This document shows, piece after piece, positions 963-28,914 of a stretch of DNA of 64,000 nt. Within the stretch, counting starts at the first letter, position 1; every line of letters starts with the position of its first letter. The notes under the pieces are model-generated. The model searched no databases and was not told where the DNA came from. It was given only the letters and a program-made list of their open reading frames with translations. The DNA lies in the NCBI RefSeq assembly GCF_025685395.1, contig NZ_JAGSYA010000004.1, positions 1,426,001-1,490,000 on the forward strand, given 5' to 3'. The position numbers and the translations under genes were made by a program. This DNA is from Terriglobus tenax. Lineage in GTDB: Bacteria > Acidobacteriota > Terriglobia > Terriglobales > Acidobacteriaceae.

Positions 963-2579
963 TTACGAGCGCACAGCCTTCCACTCCGCTACGCCGTACT
1001 CACCCAGCGCAACCTTACCGGATGCGTTGTTGCCCTGAACCGTTCCCGTGAAGTCCCAGTTCACTTCGTGCCCACTGACAGGCATGCGGGCGTGCAGCTT
1101 CAGCTGGTCACCGTGAACAGTTCCCTTCAGTTCGGCCTTGAAGATCGCACCGACCAACTGGCCGCTCACTTCGCTGGCGTTCTGCTGCAGATCGAAGGTC
1201 TGCTCTGCTGTGCCGCGCGTGTACTTCAGTGAGATGGACCACTTGCCTTCCACCTTCGCAGCGCCGGCCGGCACAACCGGGTTCTCATAGTGTCCGGGCC
1301 TGGTCAGCCCCTCGTAAATGGCAGTGGCAATCGTTGGAATCTCCGAAGCATCCAGCATGTACGGCATGATGGTGAGCGAGCTCTCCATCTTGTCGGGACG
1401 GACGCCGGAGCCGCCGTCGACCATGATGCGCGGCGTGCCTGCGTCTAGCCGCTCCACCATCTCGGTGCCAGTGATCTTCAACTGCTTCGCGTCCCAGTGG
1501 ATACGCAGGCGCGGCGAACGGTTGGAGAGGTCTTCAGGCTGCAAATATTCTATGCGTACGGAAGGCAGAGCCTTCACCTTATCGGCGATCTGATCGAGCC
1601 AACTCTTCCACTCACGCTGCTCAGCCTCGTGGTCGCGCTGGTACCACTTGTGGACCGCAGCAAGAATGCCCATGATCTCTTCCTTGCCGACCTTATAGGC
1701 GCGACCATAGTTGTGGTGCGGCGAAGCCTGGAACCATGCGGCCTTCACCAGGTCTGCCTGGCCGATCAGAAGTCCTGCAGCCTGCGGTCCGCGCATGCAC
1801 TTGCCGCCCGAATAGCCGACGAGCGATGCACCGTTCTTGATATGGATGTTCGGAGAGATGGGCTCTTCCGCGGCAGCATCGACAAAGACCGGAACGCCCT
1901 TCGTCTTCGCGACAGCGCAGATGGAAGGAATCGACAGCGGCCCCTTTTCCGCAGCGGGCGAGGAGAGGATGTAGATCATTGCCACCTTGTCGGTGAGTTT
2001 CTCCTGCAGTTCCTCGGCAGTGCCAACTTCAACAATCTCCATGCCCGTCATGCGCACGCCAAAGTCATACGGATTGCGCGAGTGCTTGGGAATGATGACC
2101 TGGCTCTTCTTCCGTGTGTACGGAAAGGCCTGCGAGAGTTCCGGGTCTGTACCGCAGGCGCAGGCAACGGTGGCCAGCGCAATGGCGGCTTCGCAACCGG
2201 TGGTCACGGTGGCCAGCTCAGCACCCATCAGCCGGGCAATCTCCGCGCCAACCTTGGGCATCAGTTCGTCCAGGTGCACGTAATAATGCGAGGCCTCAAA
2301 CATGGCCTGCTTCACTTCCGGCAGCGAACGCGAGCCGGTAATGATGGTGAAGGTGCCGTGCGCGTTGATGATGGGGCGCACACCAAGCTTGGTGAACACA
2401 TTGTCCTGCAGCGTTCCAGGACGGAAGGTAACGGCGCCATTGGAAGGAGCGGCGTGCGCTGCCTGGGCCTCGGCGCTTCCAACTGCGGCCAGCGGTGAAA
2501 TGGCGGCCATTGCTGAAAGAGCTCCGGTTTGCTTGAGTAGATCGCGTCGTGAGGGACGCATATTCGGCAGCGCACACAT
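963..2579 (-). CDS. Tat-exported SelA/DgaE-like PLP-dependent enzyme with C-terminal beta domain
   Basis: A 538-residue fold-type I PLP enzyme of the SelA-like group, which includes D-glucosaminate-6-phosphate ammonia-lyase (DgaE). Family members catalyse beta-elimination/deamination through a PLP Schiff base. The PLP lysine is K260 in GYSGGKCMRGPQ, and the ring-nitrogen Asp lies in PVFVDAAAEEP. The N terminus is a twin-arginine signal (SRRDLLK, hydrophobic stretch, AEAQA), so a folded, cofactor-loaded enzyme is probably exported. About 100 extra C-terminal residues look like an all-beta, lipocalin-like domain absent from the paralogue at 3117-4379. The ATG at 2579 has a GAGAGG ribosome site 8 nt upstream; ATG 2561 is an alternative. 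It is the last gene of the minus-strand block. The reaction is inferred from family; real substrate unknown. Confidence 0.82.
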   Translation of the reverse strand: MCALPNMRPSRRDLLKQTGALSAMAAISPLAAVGSAEAQAAHAAPSNGAVTFRPGTLQDNVFTKLGVRPIINAHGTFTIITGSRSLPEVKQAMFEASHYYVHLDELMPKVGAEIARLMGAELATVTTGCEAAIALATVACACGTDPELSQAFPYTRKKSQVIIPKHSRNPYDFGVRMTGMEIVEVGTAEELQEKLTDKVAMIYILSSPAAEKGPLSIPSICAVAKTKGVPVFVDAAAEEPISPNIHIKNGASLVGYSGGKCMRGPQAAGLLIGQADLVKAAWFQASPHHNYGRAYKVGKEEIMGILAAVHKWYQRDHEAEQREWKSWLDQIADKVKALPSVRIEYLQPEDLSNRSPRLRIHWDAKQLKITGTEMVERLDAGTPRIMVDGGSGVRPDKMESSLTIMPYMLDASEIPTIATAIYEGLTRPGHYENPVVPAGAAKVEGKWSISLKYTRGTAEQTFDLQQNASEVSGQLVGAIFKAELKGTVHGDQLKLHARMPVSGHEVNWDFTGTVQGNNASGKVALGEYGVAEWKAVRS

Positions 2580-2617
2580 AAGAAGTTCCTCTCCTATCCG
2601 TTCTTGTTTGTTGTCGT

Positions 2618-3088
2618 TTAGATGTAGGCGATCAGGTCGATCTCAACCAGCGAGTTGCCAGGGATTCCGCCGGCTGGTGCAACCGTGGTACGAACCGGAG
2701 GAACCTTGCCCCAACGGCCCTTGTACACGGAGTTCATGCGCTCCCAGTCCTTGATGTCATTCAGATAGACATTCACCTTCAGCACCTTCTCCATCGAGGA
2801 TCCGGCCGTCTTGAGGTTCTTCTCCAGCTCTTCAAGAACGTGCTTGGTGTGCTCTTCGATGGTCCCTTCAAAGTGAGCTCCAACGCCGGCCAGGAAGACC
2901 AGGTTGCCGAAGGTGACGGCGCTGCTGAACAAGGCGGTTTCGCCATCCTTGGGAACCGGGTAGCCTTTCTTCTGCGGGGCTGCGGGAGCGGCCTGCGCGG
3001 CTTCCGTGAGCACGGCGGCTCCGCCAATAACGCCGGCAGCAGCGGCTGCGTTCTTCAAGAGGTTTCTGCGGCTGGTCTTCGTGGACAT
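2618..3088 (-). CDS. Tat-exported RidA/YjgF-family protein
   Basis: A 156-residue RidA (YjgF/YER057c/UK114) protein. Classical RidA hydrolyses the reactive enamine/imine intermediates released by PLP-dependent dehydratases and lyases. The diagnostic C-terminal block is present (VRTTVAPAGGIPGNSLVEID), with substrate-binding Arg133 and Glu149, so an active deaminase is plausible. RidA proteins are normally about 125-130 residues and cytosolic; this one has about 35 extra N-terminal residues forming a twin-arginine signal (SRRNLLK, then an Ala-rich hydrophobic stretch ending AQAAPA). It sits between two Tat-exported PLP enzymes (38 bp downstream, 28 bp upstream), which is the functional partnership expected for RidA, but outside the cytoplasm. 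Confidence 0.88.
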   Translation of the reverse strand: MSTKTSRRNLLKNAAAAAGVIGGAAVLTEAAQAAPAAPQKKGYPVPKDGETALFSSAVTFGNLVFLAGVGAHFEGTIEEHTKHVLEELEKNLKTAGSSMEKVLKVNVYLNDIKDWERMNSVYKGRWGKVPPVRTTVAPAGGIPGNSLVEIDLIAYI

Positions 3089-3116
3089 GCGTTTCTCCTT
3101 TGGGGGTAACTCAGGC

Positions 3117-4379
3117 TTACGAGTGTTTCAGAACCTGCTTCAGGCTGTTGGCGACAACCTCAGCCTCGCCGGGCTGCATCATCCATACGCCGATGACGAT
3201 CGTATTCTCATCAGCGCCTTCTATGCGACCACGCACGCCGGTAGCAGGGCTCAGCTCGATCGATGGCTTCTGCGCGCGCAGCCTGTCAGCCACTTCAAGT
3301 GGCTTGATGCCAACAACGGAAGGGTCGTACTTGATGAGCAGATGCGGCACATGGTTTGCTACCGCCGGAATGTTTACGCTGGTTGTCAGCGTTGGAATCC
3401 CTTTAAGCGCAGCTTCAATGGTGCGAACCCGGCGCATGCTTTCTGCCTGCAGCGCATCGTCACTCTGGTCGAGGATCCAGTCAACGGCGGCCACCATGCC
3501 AACCATCTGCTCCTTGGCCACCTTCATGCCACGACCTACCGCATCGCTGTTGGGGCTGTCGTTCTCCAGAGCAAGATCGGTAAGGCGCTTCTTGCCGAGC
3601 AGTAGTCCCGCATTCTGCGGCCCGCGCATGCCCTTGCCGCCGGAGAAGCAGACCAGGTCAAAGCCCATCGCGGTATAGTTCCACAGGTTTGAGATTGGCG
3701 GAATATCCGCAGCTGCATCCAGGTGGCACGGCACACCGTGCTCATGCGCGACCTTCAGCCATGTCTCTCGATCAATGATGCCCGGCTCCGATTCAGGGCC
3801 GGCGGAGTTGAAGTAATTCGTCATCACCGTACGTTCGCTGAAGGCGCGCTTGTATTCGTCCAGGCCTTCTACTTCACGAATCGTCACGCCACAGATCAGC
3901 ATGGCGTGGTCATACTCATAGCGATGCTTCTTCTGCACGATTACTTCGTAGCCGCGTTCGCGTGCCTGCTGCGGGATCTGGTTCGAAGGCAGGCTGCCCT
4001 TGGCGGCAATGCATGCAGCCGTGGCCAGGGTAAGCGCGGCAGAGGCACCAGAGCTGACGACAGCACCTTCACACTTCAGGCGTTTTGCAATGTACTCGCC
4101 CGAGGCACGCTGCAGGTCCTTGAGACGCACCGGATGATGAGCAGCCAATGCAACGGCCCGCTGTACCGGAGGAGCCATAACAGCCGCCGTGAGGTAGGTG
4201 TAGGTGCCGGCGGCGTTGATGATCTTCGCTACGCCAAGCTTGTCGTAGTAATCGACCGCGCTCTCAGCCGCACCGGCGGCAAAGGCCGAAGGTGGAAGAA
4301 GCGACGCGGCAACGGTTGCACCGGCAGCACCTAACAGGCGGCGGCGGCTTATCGAATGGTCTTCAACACGGCGAGGCAA
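3117..4379 (-). CDS. Tat-exported SelA/DgaE-like PLP-dependent enzyme
   Basis: A 420-residue paralogue of the PLP enzyme at 963-2579, fold type I, SelA/DgaE-like. PLP lysine K249 lies in CFSGGKGMRGPQ and the cofactor Asp in PCHLDAAADIPP. The N terminus carries a twin-arginine signal (SRRRLLG, hydrophobic stretch, ending SAFAAGA). It lacks the extra C-terminal beta domain of the paralogue. The two copies share an N-terminal motif (KLGV..IINA.GT.T) and probably act on related substrates or as a heteromeric pair; this is inference. It is followed by ridA after 28 bp. Its upstream gap (4380-4475) contains a 17-bp palindrome that may control it. L-seryl-tRNA selenium transferase activity is unlikely for an exported protein. 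Confidence 0.82.
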   Translation of the reverse strand: MPRRVEDHSISRRRLLGAAGATVAASLLPPSAFAAGAAESAVDYYDKLGVAKIINAAGTYTYLTAAVMAPPVQRAVALAAHHPVRLKDLQRASGEYIAKRLKCEGAVVSSGASAALTLATAACIAAKGSLPSNQIPQQARERGYEVIVQKKHRYEYDHAMLICGVTIREVEGLDEYKRAFSERTVMTNYFNSAGPESEPGIIDRETWLKVAHEHGVPCHLDAAADIPPISNLWNYTAMGFDLVCFSGGKGMRGPQNAGLLLGKKRLTDLALENDSPNSDAVGRGMKVAKEQMVGMVAAVDWILDQSDDALQAESMRRVRTIEAALKGIPTLTTSVNIPAVANHVPHLLIKYDPSVVGIKPLEVADRLRAQKPSIELSPATGVRGRIEGADENTIVIGVWMMQPGEAEVVANSLKQVLKHS

Positions 4380-4451
4380 GGAAGTCCCCTTTCCAGCACG
4401 GAAAAACTTGTTCCCTTCGGTGGAATTATTGAAATTCCAGGATGAAATCGT

Positions 4452-4468
4452 GTCATCGGCCAGATGAC
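4452..4468. promoter_or_regulatory. putative operator, palindrome copy 1
   Basis: The sequence GTCATCGGCCAGATGAC has 6-bp inverted arms GTCATC/GATGAC around a 5-bp spacer. It lies in the 96-bp gap upstream of the PLP-enzyme gene starting at 4379. A copy differing at two spacer positions is at 8734-8750, and a half-site (GTCATCGGCAG) at 10153-10163. Spacing and symmetry fit a dimeric repressor such as a GntR-type protein, but no candidate regulator is adjacent. Confidence 0.55.
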
Positions 4469-4475
4469 CTAGAGA

Positions 4476-5240
4476 TTAGATACGGCCAAACTCTTTCACC
4501 GCGGCGACAATGGAATGCAGCTTTTCGATGTAGGGATACATGGCATGCTCGGTCGCGTCCAGCTTCTGTGCGCGAATCAAAACCTCGACAGCCTTGTCCT
4601 TTGGGATGACGACGACGCCGTCCTGATCGGCCGTAATGATGTCACCGGCATTGACCTTAACGCCATCGCAGGTAACGGGAATGTTCATGCCGCCGAAGCG
4701 GTAGTGGCCAACAGAGGTGGAGGGAACAGCTCCGGTGGCATACACCGGAAAGCCAATCTTCTTGAGCTGTGGAAGATCACGCACGCCGCCATCGATCACG
4801 GCTCCTGTGAATCCGCGCGACCACATGGCAGTTCCCATCAGGCCGCCCATGCCGGCAATATCAGCTCCGTCTTCCACCTGCATGACGTAGACGTTGTCCT
4901 TGCCGCCGCTGTCGATGGCCTGCAGCATGCCCTGCAGCGCGTTGGGGTCGTTGTTTTCCTGCTTGATCAACTGCACGGTCAGCGCCGTACCAACAAACTT
5001 GGTGGGGAAGATGGCCTGCATCTTGTGCGACATGTAGCGCTTTTCATGCAGCACCTGCTCCGCGGCATCAGAGACGGAGGCCGCTTCCACGTGACGGTAG
5101 GCGTCGAGCAACACCTCTGGGTTCTTACGGAGCTCTTCCTCAGTGGGTACCGACATCTCCTGCTTCATGGCCGTCAGGCCCACGGCTGTCAGAACGAGAA
5201 AGGCATTGCCAATCCACCAAAACTTCTTCGGCATACGCAT
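4476..5240 (-). CDS. RraA-like aldolase/decarboxylase, membrane-anchored
   Basis: A 254-residue RraA-family protein. The family includes 4-hydroxy-4-methyl-2-oxoglutarate aldolases and oxaloacetate decarboxylases; the RNase E inhibitor RraA is only one branch. The family signature GGVRDLPQL is present with Arg154-Asp155, followed by FPVYATGAVPSTS and ADQDGVVVIP. An N-terminal hydrophobic segment (residues 8-24, WWIGNAFLVLTAVGLTA) preceded by KK suggests a signal anchor or uncleaved signal, unusual for this normally cytosolic family. It contains no twin-arginine motif. The ATG at 5240 has GGAG 9 nt upstream. It lies 87 bp after the Oar receptor, separated from it by a terminator hairpin. A retro-aldol or decarboxylation step after deamination would fit the cluster; inferred. 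Confidence 0.82.
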   Translation of the reverse strand: MRMPKKFWWIGNAFLVLTAVGLTAMKQEMSVPTEEELRKNPEVLLDAYRHVEAASVSDAAEQVLHEKRYMSHKMQAIFPTKFVGTALTVQLIKQENNDPNALQGMLQAIDSGGKDNVYVMQVEDGADIAGMGGLMGTAMWSRGFTGAVIDGGVRDLPQLKKIGFPVYATGAVPSTSVGHYRFGGMNIPVTCDGVKVNAGDIITADQDGVVVIPKDKAVEVLIRAQKLDATEHAMYPYIEKLHSIVAAVKEFGRI

Positions 5241-5272
5241 CGAGTTACGCTCCTGTTGAGTTGCACAAACGA

Positions 5273-5303
5273 AAAAGCGGAGCCGCTGGCTTGCCCCAGC
5301 GGC
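5273..5303 (-). terminator. rho-independent terminator of the Oar-type receptor gene
   Basis: Inverted arms GCCGCTGG (5282-5289) and CCAGCGGC (5296-5303) with a 6-nt loop. Read on the minus strand, the hairpin is followed by TCCGCTTTTTCG, giving a short T-tract. It begins 25 bp beyond the stop of the receptor gene (5328), so transcription of the receptor probably ends here or is attenuated before the RraA gene. Confidence 0.7.
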
Positions 5304-5327
5304 CCCGGAAGGAGGGAGTTACCAACG

Positions 5328-8300
5328 TTAGAAGTTGATCTTACCCACCAGTTGCAGCACACGCGGATCCGTCTGCGTGCTGGTGATGGTTCCGAAGTTT
5401 GCCGCTCCGAGGGTTACGTTCGGATTGCTCGGGTTCGCATGGTTGAAGAGGTTGAACGCTTCCGCGCGGAACTGAAACTGCATGCGCTCGTAGATGGGAA
5501 TGTTCTTCGACATCGAGAAATTCACCATCTCACGGCCAGGTCCGTGCACGTCGTTGCGATGCAGATTACCAAAGGTATAAGCCGCCGGTGTGGAGTAGGC
5601 AGTTGCATCCAGGCAGCTTGCCGAGGTTCCACCGTTGATGACCGTGTTACGCGAGCAGGTGCTGACGCCCGGCTTCACGTAGTTAGGACGCTGCGTTCCG
5701 ATACCCACGTTGGCAACGTCAGACGACAGAGCAACGTTGAAGGGCATACCGGTCTGCAGCGTGACGATGGCGTTTGCCTGCCATCCGCCGAGCACCGTGC
5801 GCACAGCATAGTTGTAACGCTCAAAACCAGGCAGCTGGTAGAGAACCGTACCCACAAAGCGGTGACGAATGTCCCAGTTGGAGTTGCCATAGTCGGCACG
5901 CAGGTTGTACTGGATCATCGAGGTTCCGCCGCCGTTGGCATCGTTCGAGGTATCCAGGTTGTGCGCCCAGGTATAGGACAGGTTCGCCGACAGGCCGTGG
6001 CTGGTGCGCTGACGCAGTATAGCCGTCATGCCGTTGTAGCTGGACCATCCGCCGTTGTAGATTTCGCGGATCTGACCGAAGCGCTGGTTGGGACGACGAG
6101 CATTGACGTTACCCGCACCAGGAGTGGGCTGGTTGGGATAGAGCGAGTAATCCAGGTGAATCGAACGCGATCCCAGGTACTGCAGTTCGAAGGCAGCGTC
6201 CTTCCACAGTTCAACGCCGGTATCCAGGTTCCACTGGTACATGCGCGGAGTGGGCAGGCGAGCCGCATCCGTGAAGACCGAGGTATAGCAACCAGTCGTT
6301 CCAGGAATGCAGGCGACCGGAGCAGAGGTTCCACCGCTCGGATTGGAGAAGGTGTTCTGCGAGAAGTAGCTGTCTGCGGTGTAGGTAGTGGTGTTGGCCA
6401 GCGGATAGTTGCCGCTCGCCAGCGTGAAGGCGTTCAGGTGATTCGGGTTGTAGTAGATACCGCCGCCGCCACGGACAACGATCTTATCGGTTGCGCGGTA
6501 GGCGAAGCCAAGACGCGGAGCCCACAGGTTGTTGTTTGCGCCCGTGAACTTGAAGCCGGGAGTCGGCGTGAATGCCGCGCCGGTGGTCGCGCTGGTGGAC
6601 GGGATCAGAGCCGTGAAATCAGCGTTGAGAATACGGGCATAGCCATTCAGCGAGTACGGAATGGTGGGCTGCTCATAGCGAACGCCATACAGGAGCGTCA
6701 GCTTCTGGTTGACCTGCCAGTTGTCCTGCACAAAGTAGCCATTGCGCCAGCTGCCAACCGAGCCCTTCACCTGGAAGGTGGGAGTAACAACGGTCGCTGC
6801 ACGGCCAACAACAAAGTCAGCCAGGGCATTGGAGGGCGTGGTGTTGTTACAGGTCGCCGTCGCGCTCGGAATACAAAGGCTGGTGTAGCGGCCGCTGTAG
6901 GTGAAGTTTCCGCGAGGATCGTTCTGCGCTGCACGACCGATCGTCATACGGCGGATGTCGACACCGGCCATGATGTTGTGGCGGCCCTTGGTCCAGCTGA
7001 TCTGGTCATAGGCATGGACCGTGCGATCATCCTGCTTCCAGTTCGAACCGCTGGAACCCAGGCCGTAGTAACCGGTAACGGTGAAGGTCGGGATACCAGG
7101 ATTGTTGTTATCCACGTCCGCCGTGAAGCCAGGAATACCGAGCTGCGATCCGGCCGAGGTCAGACCCTGCTGCGCGAACTGGTTGTTGACGTTGCTGGTC
7201 AGCACGTTGAAACCAACGCGCAGATCGTTGATGAAGGACGGCGTGATGATGTGGGTGTAACCAAACACACCGTTGCGGTCCATCGTCGGCGAATAGACGT
7301 TCGATGTCGCAACAGCATTGCCGCTCAGGTAGGTAAGCTTCTGCCAGAGGAAGCGCCCAAACAGGCTGACGTTCTGTCCGATGTGGTGATCAACACGGTC
7401 CAGCGTCTGGTTCTGTTGCAGCTCCAACGGAACATAGTTGTTGAAGTTGTTCGCCACCTGCGCGTTTGTGGGCTGCGGAAAATACTGCATCAGCTGCTGA
7501 GCAACAGACGAAACCGGCAACTGGTTGTTGGCATAGGGCGTGGTGCGGTTGGTCGGATTGTAGAGCTGGGTAATGGTCGAGTTGCCATTGGACAGGCTCA
7601 GCAGCTCTGAGAAGTCACCCGTACGCATACGGACCGTCGGTACCGTGCCGGTGCTGAGGGTTTGCTGATACTGACGCAGGCCTTCATACGATCCCATAAA
7701 GAAGGTCTTGTCCTTGCCGTTGTACAAGCCGGGAATTACAACCGGTCCGCCGAGCACGCCACCGAACTGGTTGAAGCGCATCTTGGCGACGCGTGCCGAA
7801 GGAGCGGCCAACCAGGGCTTGGCGTTGAAGTAGTCGTTCTGGATGTAGTCGTATGCGGTTCCGTGCAGTGTGTTGGTGCCGGCCTTGGTATCCGAGTTGA
7901 TGTGGATACCCATGTAGGCGCCATACTGCGCGGTGTAGTTACCGCTCTGCACCTGAACAGCCGAGATCGCGTCCGGGTTCGGTGTAACCGGCGAGGACGA
8001 GATCAGCGAGTTCATGATGGTGATGCCGTCCAGCGTCAGCGAGTTGGTGACTTCGCGCGTACCGGCGCCGATGTAGTTGGCTCCCGGAGGCGTGCCGGTG
8101 AACGATGTTTTCGGTCCAATGATGACATTGGACGCAGTCGTCGCCAGATCCATCACGCGACGGGTATTCATGGGCAGGTTCTCGACCTTGGCGCGGTCGA
8201 CGGTGTCGCCGATCAGCGCATCGTCCGTCGAAAGCGCCGGAGTGTCAGCCGTAACCTGAACTTCCGTGGAGGTATCACCAACCGCCAGTGCAATGTCCGT

Positions 8301-8606
8301 ACGCGCGGACTGGTTCAGGATGACCGTGGTTCCCCTGCTGGTCGTTTTGGCATAGCCCTGCTGTTCAACGGTAATTTCGTACGAACCAGGCGCAACGAAC
8401 TGGATGGTGTAGTTCCCCTCTCCGTTCGTGGAGCCTTCGTACTTGACCTTGGTTTCGGTGTTGGTGGCGGTTACCTTGGCTCCAGCAACAACGGCTCCGC
8501 TCGGATCACTCACGGTTCCGACGAGCTGCGTGTTATTAGAGACCTGAGCGAACGATAACGTTCGCATGAAGAGAAGAACGACAAGCAACAACAGCGACTT
8601 TCTCAC
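5328..8606 (-). CDS. Oar-type TonB-dependent outer-membrane receptor
   Basis: A large TonB-dependent receptor of the Oar/acidobacterial type, 1092 residues from the preferred start. I chose GTG 8606 because AGGAG lies 7 nt upstream and it directly begins a signal peptide (VRKSLLLLVVLLF...SFAQ); the longer frame to 8738 adds 44 non-signal residues. Residues after the signal form a carboxypeptidase-regulatory-like beta domain (LVGTVSDPSGAVVAGAKVTAT), followed by a plug-like region and a long beta-barrel ending in VGKINF, with terminal Phe as usual for outer-membrane proteins. No SusD-like lipoprotein is adjacent. Its position among the PLP/RidA/RraA genes suggests it imports the substrate of that pathway; ligand unknown. 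Confidence 0.88.
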   Translation of the reverse strand: MRKSLLLLVVLLFMRTLSFAQVSNNTQLVGTVSDPSGAVVAGAKVTATNTETKVKYEGSTNGEGNYTIQFVAPGSYEITVEQQGYAKTTSRGTTVILNQSARTDIALAVGDTSTEVQVTADTPALSTDDALIGDTVDRAKVENLPMNTRRVMDLATTASNVIIGPKTSFTGTPPGANYIGAGTREVTNSLTLDGITIMNSLISSSPVTPNPDAISAVQVQSGNYTAQYGAYMGIHINSDTKAGTNTLHGTAYDYIQNDYFNAKPWLAAPSARVAKMRFNQFGGVLGGPVVIPGLYNGKDKTFFMGSYEGLRQYQQTLSTGTVPTVRMRTGDFSELLSLSNGNSTITQLYNPTNRTTPYANNQLPVSSVAQQLMQYFPQPTNAQVANNFNNYVPLELQQNQTLDRVDHHIGQNVSLFGRFLWQKLTYLSGNAVATSNVYSPTMDRNGVFGYTHIITPSFINDLRVGFNVLTSNVNNQFAQQGLTSAGSQLGIPGFTADVDNNNPGIPTFTVTGYYGLGSSGSNWKQDDRTVHAYDQISWTKGRHNIMAGVDIRRMTIGRAAQNDPRGNFTYSGRYTSLCIPSATATCNNTTPSNALADFVVGRAATVVTPTFQVKGSVGSWRNGYFVQDNWQVNQKLTLLYGVRYEQPTIPYSLNGYARILNADFTALIPSTSATTGAAFTPTPGFKFTGANNNLWAPRLGFAYRATDKIVVRGGGGIYYNPNHLNAFTLASGNYPLANTTTYTADSYFSQNTFSNPSGGTSAPVACIPGTTGCYTSVFTDAARLPTPRMYQWNLDTGVELWKDAAFELQYLGSRSIHLDYSLYPNQPTPGAGNVNARRPNQRFGQIREIYNGGWSSYNGMTAILRQRTSHGLSANLSYTWAHNLDTSNDANGGGTSMIQYNLRADYGNSNWDIRHRFVGTVLYQLPGFERYNYAVRTVLGGWQANAIVTLQTGMPFNVALSSDVANVGIGTQRPNYVKPGVSTCSRNTVINGGTSASCLDATAYSTPAAYTFGNLHRNDVHGPGREMVNFSMSKNIPIYERMQFQFRAEAFNLFNHANPSNPNVTLGAANFGTITSTQTDPRVLQLVGKINF

Positions 8607-8733
8607 GCAGTGGCTCCTGAAAAATAATTTCAATTCGGTCCTTCGTGTAGCTCTTGTCCCCTGGGGCCAGACCCCGGCGGTTCTCATACTTATTGTTTTG
8701 GTTGTAATGAAGATGGTCCGTTCACCGTGATAT

Positions 8734-8750
8734 GTCATCAGCCGGATGAC
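8734..8750. promoter_or_regulatory. putative operator, palindrome copy 2
   Basis: The sequence GTCATCAGCCGGATGAC has the same 6-bp arms and 17-bp length as the site at 4452-4468 and differs only in the spacer. It lies 128 bp upstream of the chosen receptor start and 39 bp past the stop of the amidohydrolase gene, the expected place for control of the receptor transcript. Confidence 0.55.
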
Positions 8751-8788
8751 GGTGCCACAGCTAGGACCTTTGACCTATCTCGCGAAGC

Positions 8789-10096
8789 TCAGTGGGCAAC
8801 GGAAGGCTTTTCTGGGCGAACGTGCATGGTCGTAAACCGCTTCGCCTCAGCCGGGCTCACAGTTTTGCCATTCCACGGATCGGCGGTCAGTCCATTCAGG
8901 TCATACACAACTTTTCCGTTATGAATGGTCAGCTCGCAGATCAGCTTCTTGGTGCCGGGGAACACCGTGTTATTCATATCGACAAAGCCAAACTTGCCGT
9001 TGTCGACACGCAGCACCGCAATATCGGCTGGCGAACCTTCTGTAAGGTTCCCGAGTTCCGGGTGCTGAATTTCTTTTGCAGGATTCGAGGTCATTTCCTT
9101 CACGACCTCCTGCAGGGGCAGGCCGAGGGCGATCATCTTATCAGCAACATTCAGCTCGTCTTTCATTCCGGCATTCATGCTGGTGATGTGAATGTCGGTC
9201 GAAATGGAGTCGGGAATGAAACCCTGCTTGACCAGGGGCTGCGCGACGGTCCAGTTGAAGCTGCCACCCCCGTGGCCTACGTCAAAATAGATGCCGCGCT
9301 TGCGGCCAATCTCAAGAGCCGCGCTTGCCTTGCCGGTCTTCGGATCCTGCTCATTGCGCAGGCCAGAGTACATGTGCGTGTAGATATCGCCGGGGCGCAG
9401 TACCTTCGACAGCAGGTCATAGAGCGGACGCTCTGTGCGATTCGCGCCGTAGTCGATCATGACCGGAATCTTCGCGATAGTACCGGCACGCACGGCCTGC
9501 TCATAAGGCTTCCATTCGGGGCCTTCAAAGTGAGCACTCTTGATGCCGACGATCAGGCCGGGGTACTTCATGGCCACCTTTGCGGTGGCTTCCCCGTCCA
9601 TGTCGTCCAGGTTCTGCTCAAAGCCGGGGCGCATACCTGCGCCAACAATGTTCAGCATGGCCAGAACGCGGGTGTTGGAACGATCAATGACGCGCTGCTT
9701 GAAGTCCTCAAAACTACGCCAGCCCGAGCTGCCTGCATCGACAACGGTGGTCACACCAACGCGGAAGGTAAAGCCGTCCGGATACAGGCTGTTGTCGCCG
9801 GCATAGGAGTCGCGCTCGCCGGTACCGGCATAGGCGTGAACGTGGATGTCAATCAGGCCGGGCGTCACATACAGGCCAGTGGCATCGACCGCCTTCACCG
9901 CTTCAGACGCGGCAATGGACTTTGCGACCTTTGCCACCTTGCCGTCGAGCACGGCAATATCCATCACACCGTCAATGCCGTTCTTCGGGTCAATGACATG
10001 ACCATGCTGCAGAACCAGATCATAGTGCTGCGCATTTGCAGCCGTTACGCAGGATGCGAGCACGAGAAGAGACTTAAACAGAAAGCGATTGCGCAA
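8789..10096 (-). CDS. secreted amidohydrolase/deacetylase-family metallohydrolase
   Basis: A 435-residue amidohydrolase-superfamily enzyme (dihydroorotase-like, EF_0837-type deacetylase group) with a Sec signal peptide (MRNRFLFKSLLVLASCVTAANA). Binuclear-metal ligands are all visible: H85 and H87 in IDIHVHAYAG, a candidate carboxylated Lys in GLIVGIKSAHFEG, His in IYTHMYSG, His in FDVGHGGG, and Asp in SISTDIHITS. Such enzymes cleave amide bonds, typically removing an N-acyl group. In other bacteria this family sits beside SelA/DgaE-like PLP enzymes, and that association is repeated here. The promoter region is shared with the divergent MFS gene at 10220. Deacylation ahead of PLP-dependent deamination is an inference. 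Confidence 0.85.
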   Translation of the reverse strand: MRNRFLFKSLLVLASCVTAANAQHYDLVLQHGHVIDPKNGIDGVMDIAVLDGKVAKVAKSIAASEAVKAVDATGLYVTPGLIDIHVHAYAGTGERDSYAGDNSLYPDGFTFRVGVTTVVDAGSSGWRSFEDFKQRVIDRSNTRVLAMLNIVGAGMRPGFEQNLDDMDGEATAKVAMKYPGLIVGIKSAHFEGPEWKPYEQAVRAGTIAKIPVMIDYGANRTERPLYDLLSKVLRPGDIYTHMYSGLRNEQDPKTGKASAALEIGRKRGIYFDVGHGGGSFNWTVAQPLVKQGFIPDSISTDIHITSMNAGMKDELNVADKMIALGLPLQEVVKEMTSNPAKEIQHPELGNLTEGSPADIAVLRVDNGKFGFVDMNNTVFPGTKKLICELTIHNGKVVYDLNGLTADPWNGKTVSPAEAKRFTTMHVRPEKPSVAH

Positions 10097-10219: not shown

Positions 10220-11566
10220 ATGCTTTTAGTCCAAATGGTCAGTATGGGGAAGGTCTACAAGCTTCGTTTCTTTCTTGCGTTTTTGCTGTTCTCGCTCAGC
10301 GCGATTGCCTTCCTTGACCGCACAAATATCTCGATTGCCGGACTGCAGATCAGCGAAGAGTTTGGCCTGGGATACCAGCGGCTTGGACTGATCTTCAGCG
10401 CGTTTCTGATCGGCTATGCCGGTTTTCAGATTCCGGCGGGCTGGCTGGCGGCACGCTTTGGTCCGCGCCGTGTGCTGGCGCTGGGCACGCTGTGGTGGGG
10501 CATCGCAACACTGCTGGTTGCCATCCTTCCCACCGGTATTCCCGGGGCATTGTTCTTCCTGATTGCGATCCGCCTGCTGCTGGGCGCGGGTGAAGCGGTG
10601 GTATATCCGGCGGCGAACCAGTTTGTCGCACAGTGGATACCCATCCGCGAGCGCGGCATCATCAACGGTCTTATCTTTGCCGGTGTGGGTGCGGGCAGCG
10701 GGCTTACACCTCCCTTGTTGAACTGGATCATTTCGCACGACGGCTGGCGTGCCGCTTTCTACTTCAGCGCCCTGATGGGCGCAGGCATTGGCCTGGTGTG
10801 GTGGCTGGCCTCGCGCGATACACCGAACGAGCACCCCTCGCTGTCGATGACCGAGCTGCAGGAGATAGAAGTCGGCCTCTCCATGAACCAGGAGCGCGCA
10901 CTCCACAATGGCAACGGTCAGGAGAAAACCTCGTTGTCGTGGAAAGAACTCTTCAGCCGCCGCGATCTGCCCGCGCTGATGATGGGCTACTTCTGTTTCG
11001 GCTATGTGTCGTGGATCTACTTCAGCTGGTTCTTCCTGTACATGGCAAAAGTCCGCGGGTTTGACCTGAAGGCCAGTGCGCAGATTTCCATGCTCCCCTT
11101 CCTGTCGATGACGCTGTGCTGCCTGGCTGGCGGCGCCGCCAGCGACTGGCTGTCGAGCAGAAAGAGCCTTCGTATTGGCCGCTGCTACCTGGCCACCGGA
11201 GCGCTGTTTCTTACCGGCCTCTTTCTTCTGTTTGGATCGCGTGCCAAGAGCCCGGTGGTGGCCGGCGTCATCCTCGCCTTCGGTGCCGGAGCGCTGTACA
11301 TTTCGCAAAGCTCCTTCTGGTCGGCGTCCAACGATATCGCCGGCCGCCGGTCGGGCATGTTCTCCTCTATCGTGAACATGGGAGGCCAGTTAGGCGGCGC
11401 CGTGACCGCTTCCCTAACCCCCTGGATTGCACAGAACTTCGGCTGGACGGTCTCTTTTGCCGTGGCTGCGGGATTCGCGGTGCTGGGTGGTATCTGCTGG
11501 CTTTTCGTGCACCCAGAGCACCCGCTGGTGCCCGCGAAACAGGAAGAATCAGTCAACGTCGCCTAA
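10220..11566 (+). CDS. MFS transporter, ACS family (organic anion/sugar acid type)
   Basis: A 448-residue major facilitator protein with about 12 hydrophobic segments and the family loop motif GWLAARFGPRRVL between TM2 and TM3. The opening FLAFLLFSLSAIAFLDRTNISIAG is typical of the anion:cation symporter family that carries hexuronates, glucarate and related acids across the inner membrane. The start is uncertain: ATGs occur at 10220, 10235 and 10244, and no ribosome site clearly decides between them. It is divergent from the amidohydrolase gene, and a half-palindrome (10153-10163) lies in the shared 123-bp gap. It could carry products of the extracytoplasmic pathway into the cytoplasm. Confidence 0.85.
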   Translation: MLLVQMVSMGKVYKLRFFLAFLLFSLSAIAFLDRTNISIAGLQISEEFGLGYQRLGLIFSAFLIGYAGFQIPAGWLAARFGPRRVLALGTLWWGIATLLVAILPTGIPGALFFLIAIRLLLGAGEAVVYPAANQFVAQWIPIRERGIINGLIFAGVGAGSGLTPPLLNWIISHDGWRAAFYFSALMGAGIGLVWWLASRDTPNEHPSLSMTELQEIEVGLSMNQERALHNGNGQEKTSLSWKELFSRRDLPALMMGYFCFGYVSWIYFSWFFLYMAKVRGFDLKASAQISMLPFLSMTLCCLAGGAASDWLSSRKSLRIGRCYLATGALFLTGLFLLFGSRAKSPVVAGVILAFGAGALYISQSSFWSASNDIAGRRSGMFSSIVNMGGQLGGAVTASLTPWIAQNFGWTVSFAVAAGFAVLGGICWLFVHPEHPLVPAKQEESVNVA

Positions 11567-11617: not shown

Positions 11618-14600
11618 ATGCGCTACCGCTGTAGTTTTTGGCCACTGCTGGCTACCTTCGTCTGCTTTGTGTCTGCCGTGTTGCAGGCCCAGCCCCCAGT
11701 TGCGTCTATCCGCCTTGCGGATTACCAGAAGCAGGAGTGGCAGGTTGAAGATGGCCTGCCGGAAAGCAACGTCCGCATGGTGGCGCAGCGCAGTGATGGC
11801 GTGCTGCTGCTGGCGACTTTCTCTGGCGTCTCCACCTTTGATGGGCAGAATTTTCAACGGCTGACCATGCCGAATGCGGCGACGATGAATATTGACGCCG
11901 TCAACGCCGTTCTTCCGGGCATGCATGACGATCTCTGGATCGGTACCGATGGTGCCGGCGTCATCCATCAGACCGCGAGCGGCGCCGTCAATATCAGCAG
12001 TGCCGCAGGGCATGAGAACGAGCGCATCCGCACCATGTGCTTTGATCGCGACGGCACCCTGTGGATTGCGACGCAGTATGGCATCGAGCGCTATCACCAT
12101 GAAAAGCTTGAGACCGTGTCCGGTACCGGCATTATTGGCGGTGATATCACGACCGTATTCGCCGAAGATCTGCATGGCGGAATGTACTTCGTCACATCGG
12201 CCGGACTGTTTCACTGGATCGGCGGAAAGCTGACACGCATGGCAACACCCGCGGAGTATGGCGAGCCTGTGGCAGTGTATCGCGACCGCGCATCGCACCT
12301 GTGGGTTGGCACCATGCATGCCGTATTGGAAGTGACAGAGCGCAGCGGACATGAAGTTTCCTTCACCGGACGGATGAGAGTGCCGACCCAGGTCACCCTT
12401 CTGACCAGCGACCGTCAGAACAATCTATGGATCGGCACCAAGGGCAGTGGGCTTTTCCGCTGGAATGCGGAAGGAGCTTCCGGCTGGTCCACCAAGGACG
12501 GCCTTCCGGATGACACCGTGCGCACGCTGTTTGTGGATGATGAAGATAACCTGTGGATCGGCGGGCTGACCGGCGGACTTAGCCGCTGGCGGCGTGCCCC
12601 TTTCGCCATGCTGCAGGCACCGGGCTTCAAGCCCTCTTACTCTGCGGTAGCGTTTGGAGACAGCAAAGGTGACCTCTGGCTGGGCACATGGGGACAGGGC
12701 GTTTTTCGCCAGCATGATGGCGTTATTACAGCGGTCAATATTCCCGGCATGCCCATTAAAACGCCGATACGCACCATTGCGGAAGACAAGCACGGGCGCA
12801 TCTGGGTTGGCACATGGTTTGACGGCATCTATTCCTTCAATGGAGAGACCTGGAACCACCACAAGCTTGGCATCGAGTCGCCGGTCAATGCCGTCAGCGT
12901 GCTGCATTCTGACAACAGCGGAGGCTTATGGGTGGGCACCTACACCGGGCTTCGATACTTCCGGAATGGCATTCCTTCCAGCAGCGACGGCGAGACCTAT
13001 CTCCCCAGCAAACTGATTACCGACCTGCTGGAAGATAAAGATGGCTCCATGCTGGCCGCCACCAGCACGGGCCTGTACCGCATTTCCGGTGGACAGACGC
13101 AGATGATCCGGGATGTTCCGCATCCTTATGTCCTCTCCCTTTCGTCAGACTCGCATGGCAACGTGTGGGCAGGGTCACGCACCGGGGGGCTTTCCCGCAT
13201 TCTAGGCGATGTTGCCATTCCACTGCCCAGCGATTCCGGTCTGCCCACCATGCCCGTCTACAACATGCTTGAGGACGAGCATGGTCATCTGTGGCTGGGA
13301 ACCTCGCGCGGCATCGTCCGCCTGCTGGCAGCGGAATTGAATGATCTTTCCGTGGGAAGGATCTCCCGCATATCGTCCGTCCTGTTCGTCAAGCAGGATG
13401 GCATGCCGTCCAGCGACTGCAGCGGCCCATCCAGGCCTTCCGCCGCGCTGCTGCCAAACGGCGTTCTGTACTTTGCCACCAGCAAGGGCTTCGCCCGGAC
13501 GACTCCCTTTGCGGAGAGCGCTTCCATTACGCCTCCGAATGCGAAGATCATCGGCTGGACCTTCGGCAATGACACGGGATCGGAGTCCCTTGTCACGGGT
13601 GACCGCATCATCATTGATGCATCCGAGAGCGAGGTCAACTTTCGTTTCGATGCGCATCGTCTCAGCAATCCAGCGCAGACAGAGTTTCGTTACCGTCTCA
13701 CGGGATACGATTCCGGCTGGGTAACCACTCACTCGCGTTATGCGCGATACCGGCGCATTCCCCCGGGGACCTATACCTTCGAGGTGCAGGCGCGTGTCGG
13801 CGGTGATCCCTGGATGACTCCGGTGGCGGCGATCAGCGTGCGGCAGAAGCCTCACTTCTACTCCACCTACACCTTCTACCTGCTGGTGGCCATGATTGTG
13901 TTCGCCCTGGGAGCGCATCTGTACTCTCGCAGAATCCGCCGTGTGAAAGGCAACATGGGCATTGTTCTGGAAGAACGCAACCGCATTGCCCGCGAGTGCC
14001 ATGACACGCTGATGGCGGGTTTTGCGGCAATCAGCTGGCAACTGGAGACGGCATCGCGCACGCTGGAGAAAGAATCCGTCTCCCTGACCGAAGCCCGGCA
14101 CGCGTGCGATATGGCCCGTAGCATGGTCTCTCACTGCCAGGCCGAGGCGCGCCGCATTATCTGGGATCTGCGCGACACGGATGAGGTGACCGGCGTGCTG
14201 TCGCAGGCGCTCTCCAAAGCCATCAGCTCACACTACAAGCGCGACGATGTGGAAACCCGCATGGCGGTGGAGGGACGGGAAATTCTGCTGCCTCCCGCAT
14301 CTGTCCATCACCTTGTCTGCATTGGGCAGGAGGCTGTCTCCAATGCTCTACGGCATGGCCAGCCCAAGTCTATCCTTGTGCATTTACGGTATGATGAAAC
14401 CGCACTGAAAATGGTGATTCACGACGACGGCGTTGGCTTTCCCCAGGACCGCACCGGGACCCGCCGCGGGCACTTCGGTCTGCTCGTGATGGAAGAGCGT
14501 GCGCGCAAGATCGGCGGCCGTTTCTACCTGGAAAGCGCACTCAACCGCGGCACAGAGATATCCGTGATTCTTCCTTATGATTCGCCAGATCCGGCACGCC

Positions 14601-14641
14601 GTTCCTCTGACCCTGATGTCATCCGGTGGATTGGCCTATGA
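11618..14641 (+). CDS. two-component sensor histidine kinase with beta-propeller and Y_Y_Y domains
   Basis: A 1007-residue membrane sensor. A signal peptide (to about LQAQ) precedes a large periplasmic region with at least ten propeller-repeat cores of the LWIGT type (for example DDLWIGTDGAG, GDLWLGTWGQG, GHLWLGTSRG). A Y_Y_Y domain follows (YRLTGYDSGW...PPGTYTFEVQA), then one membrane span near residues 750-770. The cytoplasmic part is a HisKA_3 dimerisation domain with phospho-acceptor H795 in RECHDTLMAG and a HATPase with N box EAVSNALRHG and DDGVGF. It lacks receiver and AraC parts, so it is not a hybrid one-protein system. It overlaps the response regulator by ATGA. No Shine-Dalgarno is visible; a GATGCC/GGCATC repeat abuts the start codon. 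Confidence 0.9.
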   Translation: MRYRCSFWPLLATFVCFVSAVLQAQPPVASIRLADYQKQEWQVEDGLPESNVRMVAQRSDGVLLLATFSGVSTFDGQNFQRLTMPNAATMNIDAVNAVLPGMHDDLWIGTDGAGVIHQTASGAVNISSAAGHENERIRTMCFDRDGTLWIATQYGIERYHHEKLETVSGTGIIGGDITTVFAEDLHGGMYFVTSAGLFHWIGGKLTRMATPAEYGEPVAVYRDRASHLWVGTMHAVLEVTERSGHEVSFTGRMRVPTQVTLLTSDRQNNLWIGTKGSGLFRWNAEGASGWSTKDGLPDDTVRTLFVDDEDNLWIGGLTGGLSRWRRAPFAMLQAPGFKPSYSAVAFGDSKGDLWLGTWGQGVFRQHDGVITAVNIPGMPIKTPIRTIAEDKHGRIWVGTWFDGIYSFNGETWNHHKLGIESPVNAVSVLHSDNSGGLWVGTYTGLRYFRNGIPSSSDGETYLPSKLITDLLEDKDGSMLAATSTGLYRISGGQTQMIRDVPHPYVLSLSSDSHGNVWAGSRTGGLSRILGDVAIPLPSDSGLPTMPVYNMLEDEHGHLWLGTSRGIVRLLAAELNDLSVGRISRISSVLFVKQDGMPSSDCSGPSRPSAALLPNGVLYFATSKGFARTTPFAESASITPPNAKIIGWTFGNDTGSESLVTGDRIIIDASESEVNFRFDAHRLSNPAQTEFRYRLTGYDSGWVTTHSRYARYRRIPPGTYTFEVQARVGGDPWMTPVAAISVRQKPHFYSTYTFYLLVAMIVFALGAHLYSRRIRRVKGNMGIVLEERNRIARECHDTLMAGFAAISWQLETASRTLEKESVSLTEARHACDMARSMVSHCQAEARRIIWDLRDTDEVTGVLSQALSKAISSHYKRDDVETRMAVEGREILLPPASVHHLVCIGQEAVSNALRHGQPKSILVHLRYDETALKMVIHDDGVGFPQDRTGTRRGHFGLLVMEERARKIGGRFYLESALNRGTEISVILPYDSPDPARRSSDPDVIRWIGL

Positions 14642-15261
14642 ACCCTATCCGCGTCATCCTGATCGAGGACCACTTTCTGGCGCGCATGGCGCTGCACTCG
14701 GTGCTATCGACCAACGCAAACATCAAGGTGATTGGCGAGGCCAGCGACGGCCAGCAAGGCATTGATCTTTACCGCCAACTCACGCCGGACGTTGTGCTGC
14801 TCGACCTGCGTATGCCGCGTGTCAGCGGTTTCGAAGTGCTGCAGCAGATTCGCAAGGAGTTCCCAAACGCGCGATGTATCATCCTCTCCTCCTATCGTGG
14901 CAGTGAGGACATCTATCGCGCCGTGCGAGGCGGAGCGATGGGCTACCTGACCAAAGATGCCTCAGGAGAAGAGGTTACCAACGCCGTGCTCACCGTCAGC
15001 CGCGGCCTCCGCTACATCCCCAAAGAGATCCTGCATCGCCTGGCCGAGCGTATGCCCTCGGTCGATCTGACACCACGCGAGAGCGAAGTGCTGACCTGCA
15101 TTACCCAGGGCCTGTCCAACCGAGAGATCGCCGAAGAACTTGGCATTGCGGAGAAGACAGTCCGCATCCACGTCAGCTCGATCCTGGAAAAGATGGGTGC
15201 ACGCGATCGAACACAAGCCACCATCTATGCCCTGCAGCGCGGGCTCGTGGATCTGTCCTGA
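14638..15261 (+). CDS. NarL/FixJ-family response regulator
   Basis: A 207-residue DNA-binding response regulator, partner of the preceding kinase. The receiver domain shows the acidic pocket (ED at 10-11), phospho-acceptor D56 in VVLLDLRMPR and conserved Lys in GYLTKDAS. The C-terminal LuxR/GerE helix-turn-helix is LTPRESEVLTCITQG...NREIAEELGIAEKTVRIHVS. The ATG at 14638 overlaps the kinase stop as ATGA, which implies translational coupling and makes this start better than the in-frame ATG at 14626. Targets are unknown; neighbouring receptor, transporter and exported enzymes are natural candidates. Confidence 0.93.
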   Translation: MNPIRVILIEDHFLARMALHSVLSTNANIKVIGEASDGQQGIDLYRQLTPDVVLLDLRMPRVSGFEVLQQIRKEFPNARCIILSSYRGSEDIYRAVRGGAMGYLTKDASGEEVTNAVLTVSRGLRYIPKEILHRLAERMPSVDLTPRESEVLTCITQGLSNREIAEELGIAEKTVRIHVSSILEKMGARDRTQATIYALQRGLVDLS

Positions 15262-20285: not shown

Positions 20286-23200
20286 TTAGAAAACCAGCTT
20301 GCCAGAGAGTTGCAGGAATCGCGGCAGGTTCGACTGGTCCGTAGCAACAGCCACTTTTCCGAAATTTCCGTTGGTGGAATCAATAACAGGACCATTGAAC
20401 CATTGCGGCGTATTCGTCAGGTTGAGCGCATCGCAACGAAGTATGAGAGAGACCGATTCTTTGAGGACCGTCTCTTTCATAATGCTCACATCCCAATTGC
20501 GAATGGGAGGATTACGAAGCGAAGACATGCGGGTTGACCAGCTCTGGAAGGTGTCAGAAGGACGGGTCCTCCATGCTGCGGATTCGCCAGACTGGCAATT
20601 CTGCGTGGCGCCCGAGGTGAGCTGCGTGCAGGTGTTGAACCAGCGATTGAGTGTCGGGTTCGATAGCTTTGGATTGACACCCGTTGGGATGACTCCGGTA
20701 GGTGTTGTGAGGGGCATACCACTCTGAAGACGAGCGATTGCACTGAGACGCCATCCGCTGACCAGTGTGTTGACCGCACCGGGCAAAGAGCCGGCGAACT
20801 TACGTCCGTGTCCAAACGGAAGCTCGTAGACGCCGTTGATCTGGATGCTGTGTGCAACATCCCATGCGGCAACAACCTTTTCCGGAGAGCTGTCCTGTGC
20901 CTGACGGAATGCTGTCTGTCCGAGCGTCTTAGAGAAGGTGTACGAGAGGCTCGCACTGGCGCCGGCCGACATCTTCTTCTGAAACAGTGCCTGCATGCCG
21001 TTGTAGTTCGACGAACCGATGGAGTTGGTCTGCGAAGTAATTCCGAGATACTGCGGATAAGGACGCAGGAGTTGGCGGCGCTGAACCGTGCTGGAGTTCA
21101 ACGATGTTCCAGGAAGCTTGCCTGCAAAAGGGTTGGTGACGCTTGCTGACAAATAGCTCGTACCCTGCGCCAGGTTCGATGCAGAGATTTCGTTGATGGA
21201 CTGGCTGACGGCCAACGCCTTGGTGGTGCTGCCAACGTAGCCAACGGAGGCCAATACCTTTCCTGGAAGTTCGCGCTGCACTTCAAACGAATATTGCTGC
21301 GTCCACGGAAGTTTCCGGTTGGGATTGGCGAAACTCAACGACTGCCCGAGATTAGCCGACAGTCCGAGCGAGCTGCCGGAGTTCTGCTGTACTCCATCCG
21401 GAAAAGGATTGGTGAGCGTATTGTAGGGAGTTCCTGTAACAACAGAGGTGACCATCGCTGTCTGCTGGCTGAAACCGGGAGCGTTGCCGGGATCGTCAAA
21501 ACCCTGCGCATAGACAAGACCATAGCCGCCGCGGAGTACCGTCTTGTTATCCAGACGATAAGCCGCACCAACACGCGGCCCAAAGTTATTGAAGTCGTTG
21601 TTGTAGATGCCACGGGGCTGGCCATTCACGCCCGCGTAGAGCAAGCCACCGCGGAGATTCATACCCGATACCTGCAACGGGCTGGCTACCGAGGTATCAA
21701 AACCGCGAGCAACTGCGTTATGACGATCGGTCATTGGCGTCATCACATCCCAGCGCATACCAAGGTTCACAGTGAGCCGGTCTGAAAGACGAACATCATC
21801 CTGCACGAAGAGGGAATACAGCATCTGCTGACGGATCTCTGGCGTATTGACGTCAATGTAGCCAGACGCCGGGGTCCCCAGAAGGAACGAAGCAACCGAG
21901 TTGCCGGAGGTGGAGTTTGCGGCGTTGGCATCGCTGCCGGTGAAGATTGTGTTGAAGGTAAAGTTGCCGGAGCTGTAGCCCTGGCTAACGATGTAGACAC
22001 GGTTGAGATAGAACTCGCCACCCGTGCGAATGGTGTGACGTCCGAAAGAACGATACAACAGAGCGTTGAAGGCATTGCCCTGCGAAATGGGGCTCAGACC
22101 TTCGGGCTGCGCACCGATCTGGGCGTAATTTGCCAGGTTGAAAACAGGGATTTTGTTCACTGCCTGCGAGGCGAACTGACTGGAGAAACCGAGGTTCGTC
22201 AATCCATATCCGCTTCCCTGTGGGCCGCCATTGTGCAGCAGGAAGCGTTCGAAACCGATACGAGCATCGATCATGGTACGCGAGTTGAAGGCGTGCGTTG
22301 CCTGGATGGTGAAGTTGTGGTTTTCACGGTTGTATTGCGAGTTCTTGCTGGGATCAAAGGCATTAACCTCAGCGATCGTGGAGTACAGGAATCCGCGCGC
22401 TTCCGTAAGCTTGTTCCGCGAATAGCGAACAAACATGGACGTGGAGTTGTTGATGACATAGTCACCGCGCAGTACCCATGTCCCGAACAGATCAGAAAAT
22501 TTGCGTGAGTTAGGACCGTTCACCAGGTTATTCAAACCCGTCACAGAATCGCCAGCAGCATTGCCAAGCGGGATGGAATTCAGCGTCTTCACGGCAACCG
22601 GGTTCAGCATGCTGGCAGGGATGACGTTGTTTGCAAACGCATCGCGCACGTAGGCATTCTTCACAGAATCAAAGCGCGTGGAGAACGGGTTATAAATCGT
22701 GCGCAGCTTGCCGGCGCTGTAATACGTGCTGGAAAAATCACCGGTGCGCTGAGCAGCAGTAGCAACGGAAGTAGTGAAGGGATCGGGGATGTACTGCCGC
22801 AACTGCTCATAAGCGAAGAACGCGAAGAGCTTGTTCCTGCGAATAGGGCCGCCAATCGACCCGCCGAAGGTATTGATGTGCGACGAACTGCGCGGCGTGC
22901 CAGCGTAGTTCGCGTTATAGGTGTTTGCATTGAACATGGTGTTCTGCAGAAGCTCATAGGCAGATCCATGAAAACGATTCGTGCCGCCACGCGTGGAGAT
23001 GTTTACGATGCCGCCCGTCGTCCAGCCGTACTGGGCATCGTAGACAGAAGTATGCACACGGAACTCATCCGTTGCAGAGACCGGAGGAACATACGCGACA
23101 GAGCTGGACTGAGAGAGTGCCGACGTACCATCCACCAGCACTTCGTTCATGGAAGGTTGTCCACCATTGATCGACATACCGGAAGATCCGCCGACGTCAA

Positions 23201-28895: not shown

Positions 28896-28914
28896 ATCTG
28901 TGGACTATGGCACG

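Follow-up and report, generated by a model that had tools for sequence, protein, structure and literature searches.

A conserved, leader-bearing set of PLP enzymes, RidA and amidohydrolase in Terriglobus tenax: a candidate extracytoplasmic route for amino sugar acids

A cluster of six genes in the acidobacterium Terriglobus tenax appears to encode an enzymatic module that is deployed outside the cytoplasm. It lies in a 64 kb (64,000-nucleotide) stretch of contig NZ_JAGSYA010000004.1 (assembly GCF_025685395.1, positions 1,426,001 to 1,490,000), henceforth the window, where the open reading frame (ORF) list gives six co-directional minus-strand genes spanning positions 963-10096. In order of transcription these encode an amidohydrolase, an outer-membrane β-barrel protein, an RraA-like protein, a pyridoxal phosphate (PLP)-dependent enzyme (PLP2), a RidA protein and a further PLP enzyme (PLP1), with a convergent fucosidase gene at the far end. 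The export of the enzyme set, and its existence as a module, are very likely on the sequence evidence, and deacylation followed by PLP-dependent deamination is the likely chemistry. We give about an even chance to a more specific reading, in which the module breaks down 2-acetamido-2-deoxy sugar acids, for example N-acetylglucosaminate (GlcNAc1A) or a 6-deoxy analogue, in the periplasm or at the cell surface. An earlier note on this DNA, which located the cluster's ORFs correctly, had proposed an extracytoplasmic pathway of deacylation, PLP-dependent elimination, imine hydrolysis, and aldol cleavage or decarboxylation by RraA. The export leaders and the association of the genes bear this proposal out in part, and its first steps parallel the cytoplasmic Ong pathway (PMC9537276), but its RraA step fares poorly.

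The leaders were identified throughout by a simple rule or by eye, with start codons chosen permissively. PLP1 (963-2579, minus strand), a DgaE/SelA-like fold-I enzyme, has a twin-arginine translocation (Tat) leader at about residues 1-40, and RidA (2618-3088, minus), of the YjgF/UK114 family, likewise carries a Tat leader; both exceed the cut-off of the NCBIfam model TAT_signal_seq (16.7 bits), with 18.8 and 20.0 bits respectively. The NCBIfam search did not report this model for PLP2 (3117-4379, minus; TTG start), a second DgaE/Cap15-like enzyme, whose Tat-like leader SRRRLLG was found by rule and eye. The RraA-like protein (4476-5240, minus) begins with a hydrophobic segment, either a signal or an anchor, and the amidohydrolase (8789-10096, minus) has a Sec-type leader. 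Shuffling the first 60 residues produced Tat-like leaders in 1.1% (PLP1), 0.2% (RidA) and 1.9% (PLP2) of draws, and an origin of the leaders by chance was rejected on these rates. The permissive Tat rule flags 9 of the window's 36 genes, a few of these hits being spurious, and hence conservation among relatives is the stronger evidence for export.

For this comparison the sets termed exported and cytoplasmic were defined by source and not by leader: the former comprises the loci from Acidobacteriota and Alphaproteobacteria together with that of Granulicella tundricola (plasmid pACIX902), and the latter the other plasmid records, a biased, exclusively plasmid-borne sample with 21 PLP rows, four of them (L088, L089, L108, L112) in contexts lacking the trio of amidohydrolase, RidA and PLP enzyme. 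Tat-like leaders are present in all 67 PLP rows of the exported set and in 29 of its 32 RidA rows, the other three having Sec or transmembrane (TM) leaders; its amidohydrolases have Sec/TM leaders in 25 of 29 rows and Tat-like ones in 4, and 14 of 15 RraA relatives bear a leader. Under the same permissive rule the plasmid-borne relatives yield two Tat-like and one Sec/TM leader in 21 PLP rows, and none among 13 RidA and 10 amidohydrolase rows. Doubtful entries in these counts are the RidA leader of L070, a two-domain protein, and the PLP rows L110 and L125, which are Tat-like under the permissive rule and not at their annotated starts. The twin-arginine leaders that the earlier note had read on both PLP enzymes and RidA, and the N-terminal membrane segment of RraA, are thus present and conserved; close homologues devoid of signals, which it had named as grounds for abandoning its proposal, were looked for, and what we found instead were homologues that retain them. 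Calls made by rule and eye, with a quarter of the window genes flagged, give some room to the view that the leaders are non-functional and the proteins cytoplasmic, but the low shuffle rates, and a leader in every exported-set PLP and RidA row against none, by eye, in the 18 plasmid-borne PLP relatives with annotated starts, render it highly improbable. TatC is encoded in the same genome, and PvdN of pyoverdine maturation offers a precedent for a Tat-exported PLP enzyme, though our literature search returned no paper for it.

The cassette was traced through 40 of the regions matched in a search of Acidobacteriota genomes and through alphaproteobacterial loci, requiring RidA within 3 kb, and amidohydrolase or RraA within 8 kb, of a PLP1-type gene; L052, which duplicates L087, was left out. 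RidA and the amidohydrolase both accompany the PLP1-type gene in 10/12 Terriglobia, 9/12 alphaproteobacterial and 3/14 other Acidobacteriota loci, the corresponding figures for RraA being 10/12, 2/12 and 2/14. Across 297 Acidobacteriota genomes the PLP core (E<=1e-10) is found in 31 and the amidohydrolase (E<=1e-60) in 29, with 24 shared where 3.0 are expected (hypergeometric p = 2e-24, phylogeny ignored). PLP2 relatives are patchy, occurring in 24 of the 120 genomes of Acidobacteriaceae. The alphaproteobacterial search used short patterns and yielded 13 loci, and therefore gives no frequency for that class.

The same three families are also found together on plasmids. Those of Aminobacter (two), Phyllobacterium, Sagittula and Aureimonas (L110, L114, L122, L123, L125) combine amidohydrolase, RidA and PLP enzyme with ATP-binding cassette (ABC) transporter genes; Rhizobium and Paraburkholderia plasmids have RidA and the PLP enzyme; and on two plasmids of haloarchaea the PLP gene has RidA and a PIG-L deacetylase in its vicinity. 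Four further stretches, associated with the phosphotransferase system (PTS), combine DgaE with 2-keto-3-deoxy-6-phosphogluconate (KDGP) aldolase, with PTS subunits in two and PTS regulation domain (PRD) regulators alongside DUF4310-4312 genes in the other two; an amidohydrolase is present in three of them, RidA in none, and the Klebsiella stretch also has a lactonase. Judging from these neighbourhoods, the trio is a recurring unit with putative cytoplasmic and exported forms. In trees of the PLP enzymes (five short rows removed), amidohydrolases and RidAs, the source-defined export label changes once each, and the split between the two sets is supported at 72, 100 and 86 respectively by a quick method, long branches being flagged in every tree. 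The alphaproteobacterial PLP1 proteins (L035-L046) nest inside the Terriglobia PLP1 group, at forks with support of 85 and 91, which suggests transfer between the phyla. That the exported families belong together, as the earlier note had surmised, is borne out by synteny in two phyla and by the cytoplasmic version of the trio in rhizobia and their kin.

Both PLP enzymes find their best NCBIfam match in TIGR01437 (DgaE/selA_rel), with 181.4 (PLP1) and 150.5 bits (PLP2) against a cut-off of 385.3, and NF047797 (DgaE) gives 148.7 and 111 bits against 600. Within the 4.36 Mb genome these two are the only matches of substance to TIGR01437, a third reaching just 25.7 bits. PLP1 K260 and PLP2 K249 correspond in the alignments to the SGAK-motif lysine of DgaE, confirming the earlier description of two SelA/DgaE-like enzymes, and this lysine is kept in all 84 homologue rows with letters at the position. 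The DgaE His-162/163 pair, strictly conserved in DGL sequences according to PMC9529869, is replaced by P/A in PLP1 and A/G in PLP2, and hence neither is a plain DgaE orthologue. His-163 occurs in none of the 63 exported-set rows with letters (four rows have none), and His-162 in a single row (L083). The same paper reports that His-163 of DGL protonates the enamine and that the H163A mutant is still active, setting free enamine loose in solution; the absence of this residue here fits with enamine release and a RidA partner. A general prediction that loss of His-163 tracks a RidA neighbour nevertheless failed: RidA lies within 3 kb in 38/67 exported rows (none with His-163), 11/16 cytoplasmic rows with His-163 and 2/5 without, the rhizobial enzymes holding His-163 yet having RidA. 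Association with the PTS, where RidA neighbours are absent from all four stretches, separates better than this residue.

The PLP domain of PLP1 (residues ~59-430) is followed by an avidin/calycin-like eight-stranded barrel (~440-538; window 966-1274, minus), without a Pfam match, which is missing from PLP2 and has only one copy in the genome. The idea that it is unique to the cassette was rejected, as PLP1 matches reach the C-terminus of two Sinorhizobium PLP proteins (L088, L089), encoded in phosphonate clusters and without Tat leaders. Matches to the barrel part alone, in four genomes (G009, G120, G156, G274), were dropped from the PLP genome count, reducing it from 35 to 31.

The PLP enzymes also resemble Cap15, an enzyme of capuramycin biosynthesis, and could on that account be oxygen-dependent oxidases or oxidative decarboxylases, and not ammonia-lyases, with RidA clearing an imine product. 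As PLP1 scores DgaE (117.9 bits) over Cap15 (101.8 bits) and several relatives share operons with KDGP aldolase, we regard this as quite unlikely. RidA itself (Pfam PF01042, 75.0 bits against a cut-off of 27.3) has the active-site residues R133 and E149 pointed out before, and its aligned relatives keep both.

The amidohydrolase scores 413.5 bits against NF006689 (cut-off 371) and is the sole match over cut-off in its genome. The earlier note had credited it with a Sec signal and full metal ligands; the leader stands and the full ligand set does not, since the HxH, Lys, THMYSG His and STD Asp are present while the β-5 His is replaced by Asp. This position is Asp in 30/30 exported-set amidohydrolases and His in 10/10 plasmid-borne cytoplasmic ones. 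The related cog3964 enzymes reportedly act as esterases on acetyl-(R)-mandelate and attack N-acetyl-D-serine only weakly. This, and the altered β-5 ligand, would suit an acyl-hydroxy-acid esterase alongside PLP enzymes acting on a separate substrate, with neighbours sharing regulation and not one pathway; that exported, ABC-fed and PTS-associated loci alike keep the amidohydrolase with the PLP enzyme makes such an arrangement very unlikely.

The aldolase/decarboxylase activity of RraA is said to need a D-x20-R-D or a G-x20-R-D-x2-E/D motif. Most RraA homologues hold one of two motifs (PMC5065237). The cassette RraAs have G-x20-RD-x2-Q in 13/13 cases and, by the motif rule, should be without the metal site. 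We therefore rejected a standard class II aldolase role, and an aldol or decarboxylation step by RraA is doubtful.

Sugar acids are the favoured substrates on the gene context. To the left of the window, the genome encodes a D-mannonate dehydratase (ManD), a short-chain dehydrogenase/reductase, a lactonase with a Tat-like leader, a berberine bridge enzyme (BBE)-type flavin adenine dinucleotide (FAD) oxidase and the fucosidase; the genes that narrow the substrate most, namely the lactonase, oxidase and mannonate dehydratase, thus lie outside the window. AA7-type BBE enzymes turn sugars into lactones by oxidation at C1. Both a lactonase and a BBE gene are found again in two relatives of the same genus and in G. 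tundricola, and a lactonase alone in L053-L055. The alphaproteobacterial loci, some on contigs that end early, have genes for glucose-methanol-choline (GMC) oxidoreductases (9/12) and galactarate (9/12), glucarate (8/12) and L-rhamnonate (7/12) dehydratases. The major facilitator superfamily (MFS) carrier (10220-11566, plus), divergent from the cluster, best matches TIGR00893 (D-galactonate transporter subfamily; 228 bits, cut-off 395) and may import the product. This context and the Ong pathway together point to 2-acetamido-2-deoxy-aldonates. The same exported chemistry might instead serve N-acyl-D-amino acids of the D-serine/D-threonine type, for instance from cell-wall turnover: OngC also deaminates D-serine and D-threonine by the account in PMC9537276, and two rhizobial relatives have genes for threonine dehydrogenase and glycine acetyltransferase close by. 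Given that genes for sugar-acid dehydratases, a lactonase or an MFS carrier are repeatedly found next to the cassette in two phyla, and that all four PTS-associated relatives feed KDGP aldolase, we consider this alternative unlikely.

From these observations we infer a scheme for amino-sugar-acid catabolism. The outer-membrane barrel would admit the substrate, the Sec-exported amidohydrolase would take off the acetyl group, and one or both of the Tat-exported, cofactor-loaded PLP enzymes would eliminate water and ammonia from the resulting amino sugar acid. The Tat-exported RidA would then hydrolyse the enamine/imine set free in this step, and the MFS carrier would bring the resulting 2-keto-3-deoxy acid to Entner-Doudoroff enzymes in the cytoplasm (the genome encodes Eda at another site); RraA may have a structural or some other chemical role. 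A bolder version, held tentatively and at well below even confidence, is that the entire deamination of the amino sugar acid is extracytoplasmic, with PLP enzymes devoid of the enamine-protonating His freeing an enamine that the co-exported RidA resolves, and that the set left the cytoplasm once with matching active-site changes and was later passed between Acidobacteriota and Alphaproteobacteria.

Several observations weigh against the sugar-acid module. The catalytic residues present a mixed picture, their loss having been named beforehand as refuting: the PLP lysine and the RidA Arg and Glu are kept, whereas the DgaE histidines in both PLP enzymes, an amidohydrolase ligand and the RraA motif have changed, and the reported esterase activity of cog3964 enzymes points elsewhere. 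The trio is rarely complete in the other Acidobacteriota, PLP2 is missing from every alphaproteobacterial locus and RraA from most of them, and four plasmid loci have a PLP relative without the trio in unrelated contexts. The BBE oxidase, a possible maker of the aldonate, has no leader by eye in 4/4 loci, though its likely partners are exported. Finally, leaders are found on 6 of the 7 RidA-family genes of this genome, the cassette RidA included (by eye, the other six comprise one Tat-like, four Sec-like and one without a leader); exported RidA-family proteins being so common here, the export of RidA says little by itself.

As for the remaining genes, the barrel protein (5328-8738, minus; OMP_b-brl_4) has a carboxypeptidase-regulatory-like N-terminal domain, and is one of four large OMP_b-brl_4 barrels in the window, with those at 20286-23714, 28881-32561 and 39904-43389. 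Beyond the MFS gene, and likewise divergent from the cluster, is a two-component pair: a Reg_prop/Y_Y_Y sensor histidine kinase (HisKA_3; 11618-14641, plus), a possible regulator with a homologue beside the cassette in several relatives, and a LuxR-type response regulator (14626-15261, plus). The convergent α-L-fucosidase of glycoside hydrolase family 29 (GH29) is represented in the window by its C-terminal part (3-950, plus; whole gene, contig 1425598-1426950); it is linked to the cassette in two relatives of the same genus and in G. tundricola, and another GH29 gene occurs in 2/12 alphaproteobacterial loci. Glycan-degrading genes are also found in the right part of the window: a second GH29 fucosidase (34902-36356, plus) and GH31 and GH2 enzymes (37651-39837 and 47808-49517, both minus). 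A 538-residue ORF at 26812-28428 (minus) has no Pfam match at E 1e-8.

Were the proposed scheme correct, a PLP-dependent elimination with a reactive enamine product would run outside the cytoplasm, RidA would be an extracytoplasmic pathway partner beyond its role in guarding cytoplasmic PLP enzymes, and a plausible amino-sugar route could be named for soil Acidobacteriota. The scheme would also touch on the question, left open by PMC9537276, of why growth on GlcNAc1A requires OngD.

Among known systems, the ABC-fed plasmid clusters of Aminobacter, Phyllobacterium, Sagittula and Aureimonas unite the same three homologous families in one locus; they differ in having no leaders that we could see, in their ABC transporter genes and in retaining both His-162/163 and the β-5 metal His. 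DgaE/DGL (PMC9529869) shares the fold, catalytic lysine and core residues, and has an amidohydrolase neighbour in 3/4 DgaE stretches, whereas the cassette enzymes are predicted to be exported, score below the family cut-off, have the histidine pair replaced and RidA as partner, and in PLP1 bear the barrel. The 23 features annotated in the G. tundricola stretch, and the Pfam matches listed for 29 window proteins, include no PTS or KDGP aldolase neighbour. The cog3964 amidohydrolases (PDB: 2ogj, 8je0, 8wzy, 2ics) belong to the same sequence family and share most metal ligands, the cassette enzyme differing in its predicted export and β-5 Asp, while Cap15 (PDB: 8t7j), oxygen-dependent by its PDB title, is as near as DgaE to the cassette PLP enzymes in fold and sequence. 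A close functional parallel is the Ong pathway of Pseudoalteromonas prydzensis, with the deacetylase OngB, the PLP deaminase OngC and the RidA-family OngD (PMC9537276, PMC12017989). OngB, OngC and the essential OngD act on GlcNAc1A, and the likeness extends to deacetylation and then PLP-dependent deamination without prior phosphorylation, and to TonB-dependent receptors; the Ong system differs in its sodium-solute symporter (SSS) importer and KdgK kinase (PMC9537276). Its enzymes also come from other families, as OngC has fold-type III and OngB is a D-aminoacylase-like amidohydrolase of subtype V (PMC12017989 for OngB), and membership of the cassette proteins in the OngB and OngC families was rejected, since PLP1 matches fold-I enzymes and the amidohydrolase belongs to NF006689. 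The Ong enzymes published for this chemistry were predicted to be cytoplasmic (PMC9537276), and among the open-licence PMC papers listed by our searches, judged by titles and abstract openings, none described an exported form.

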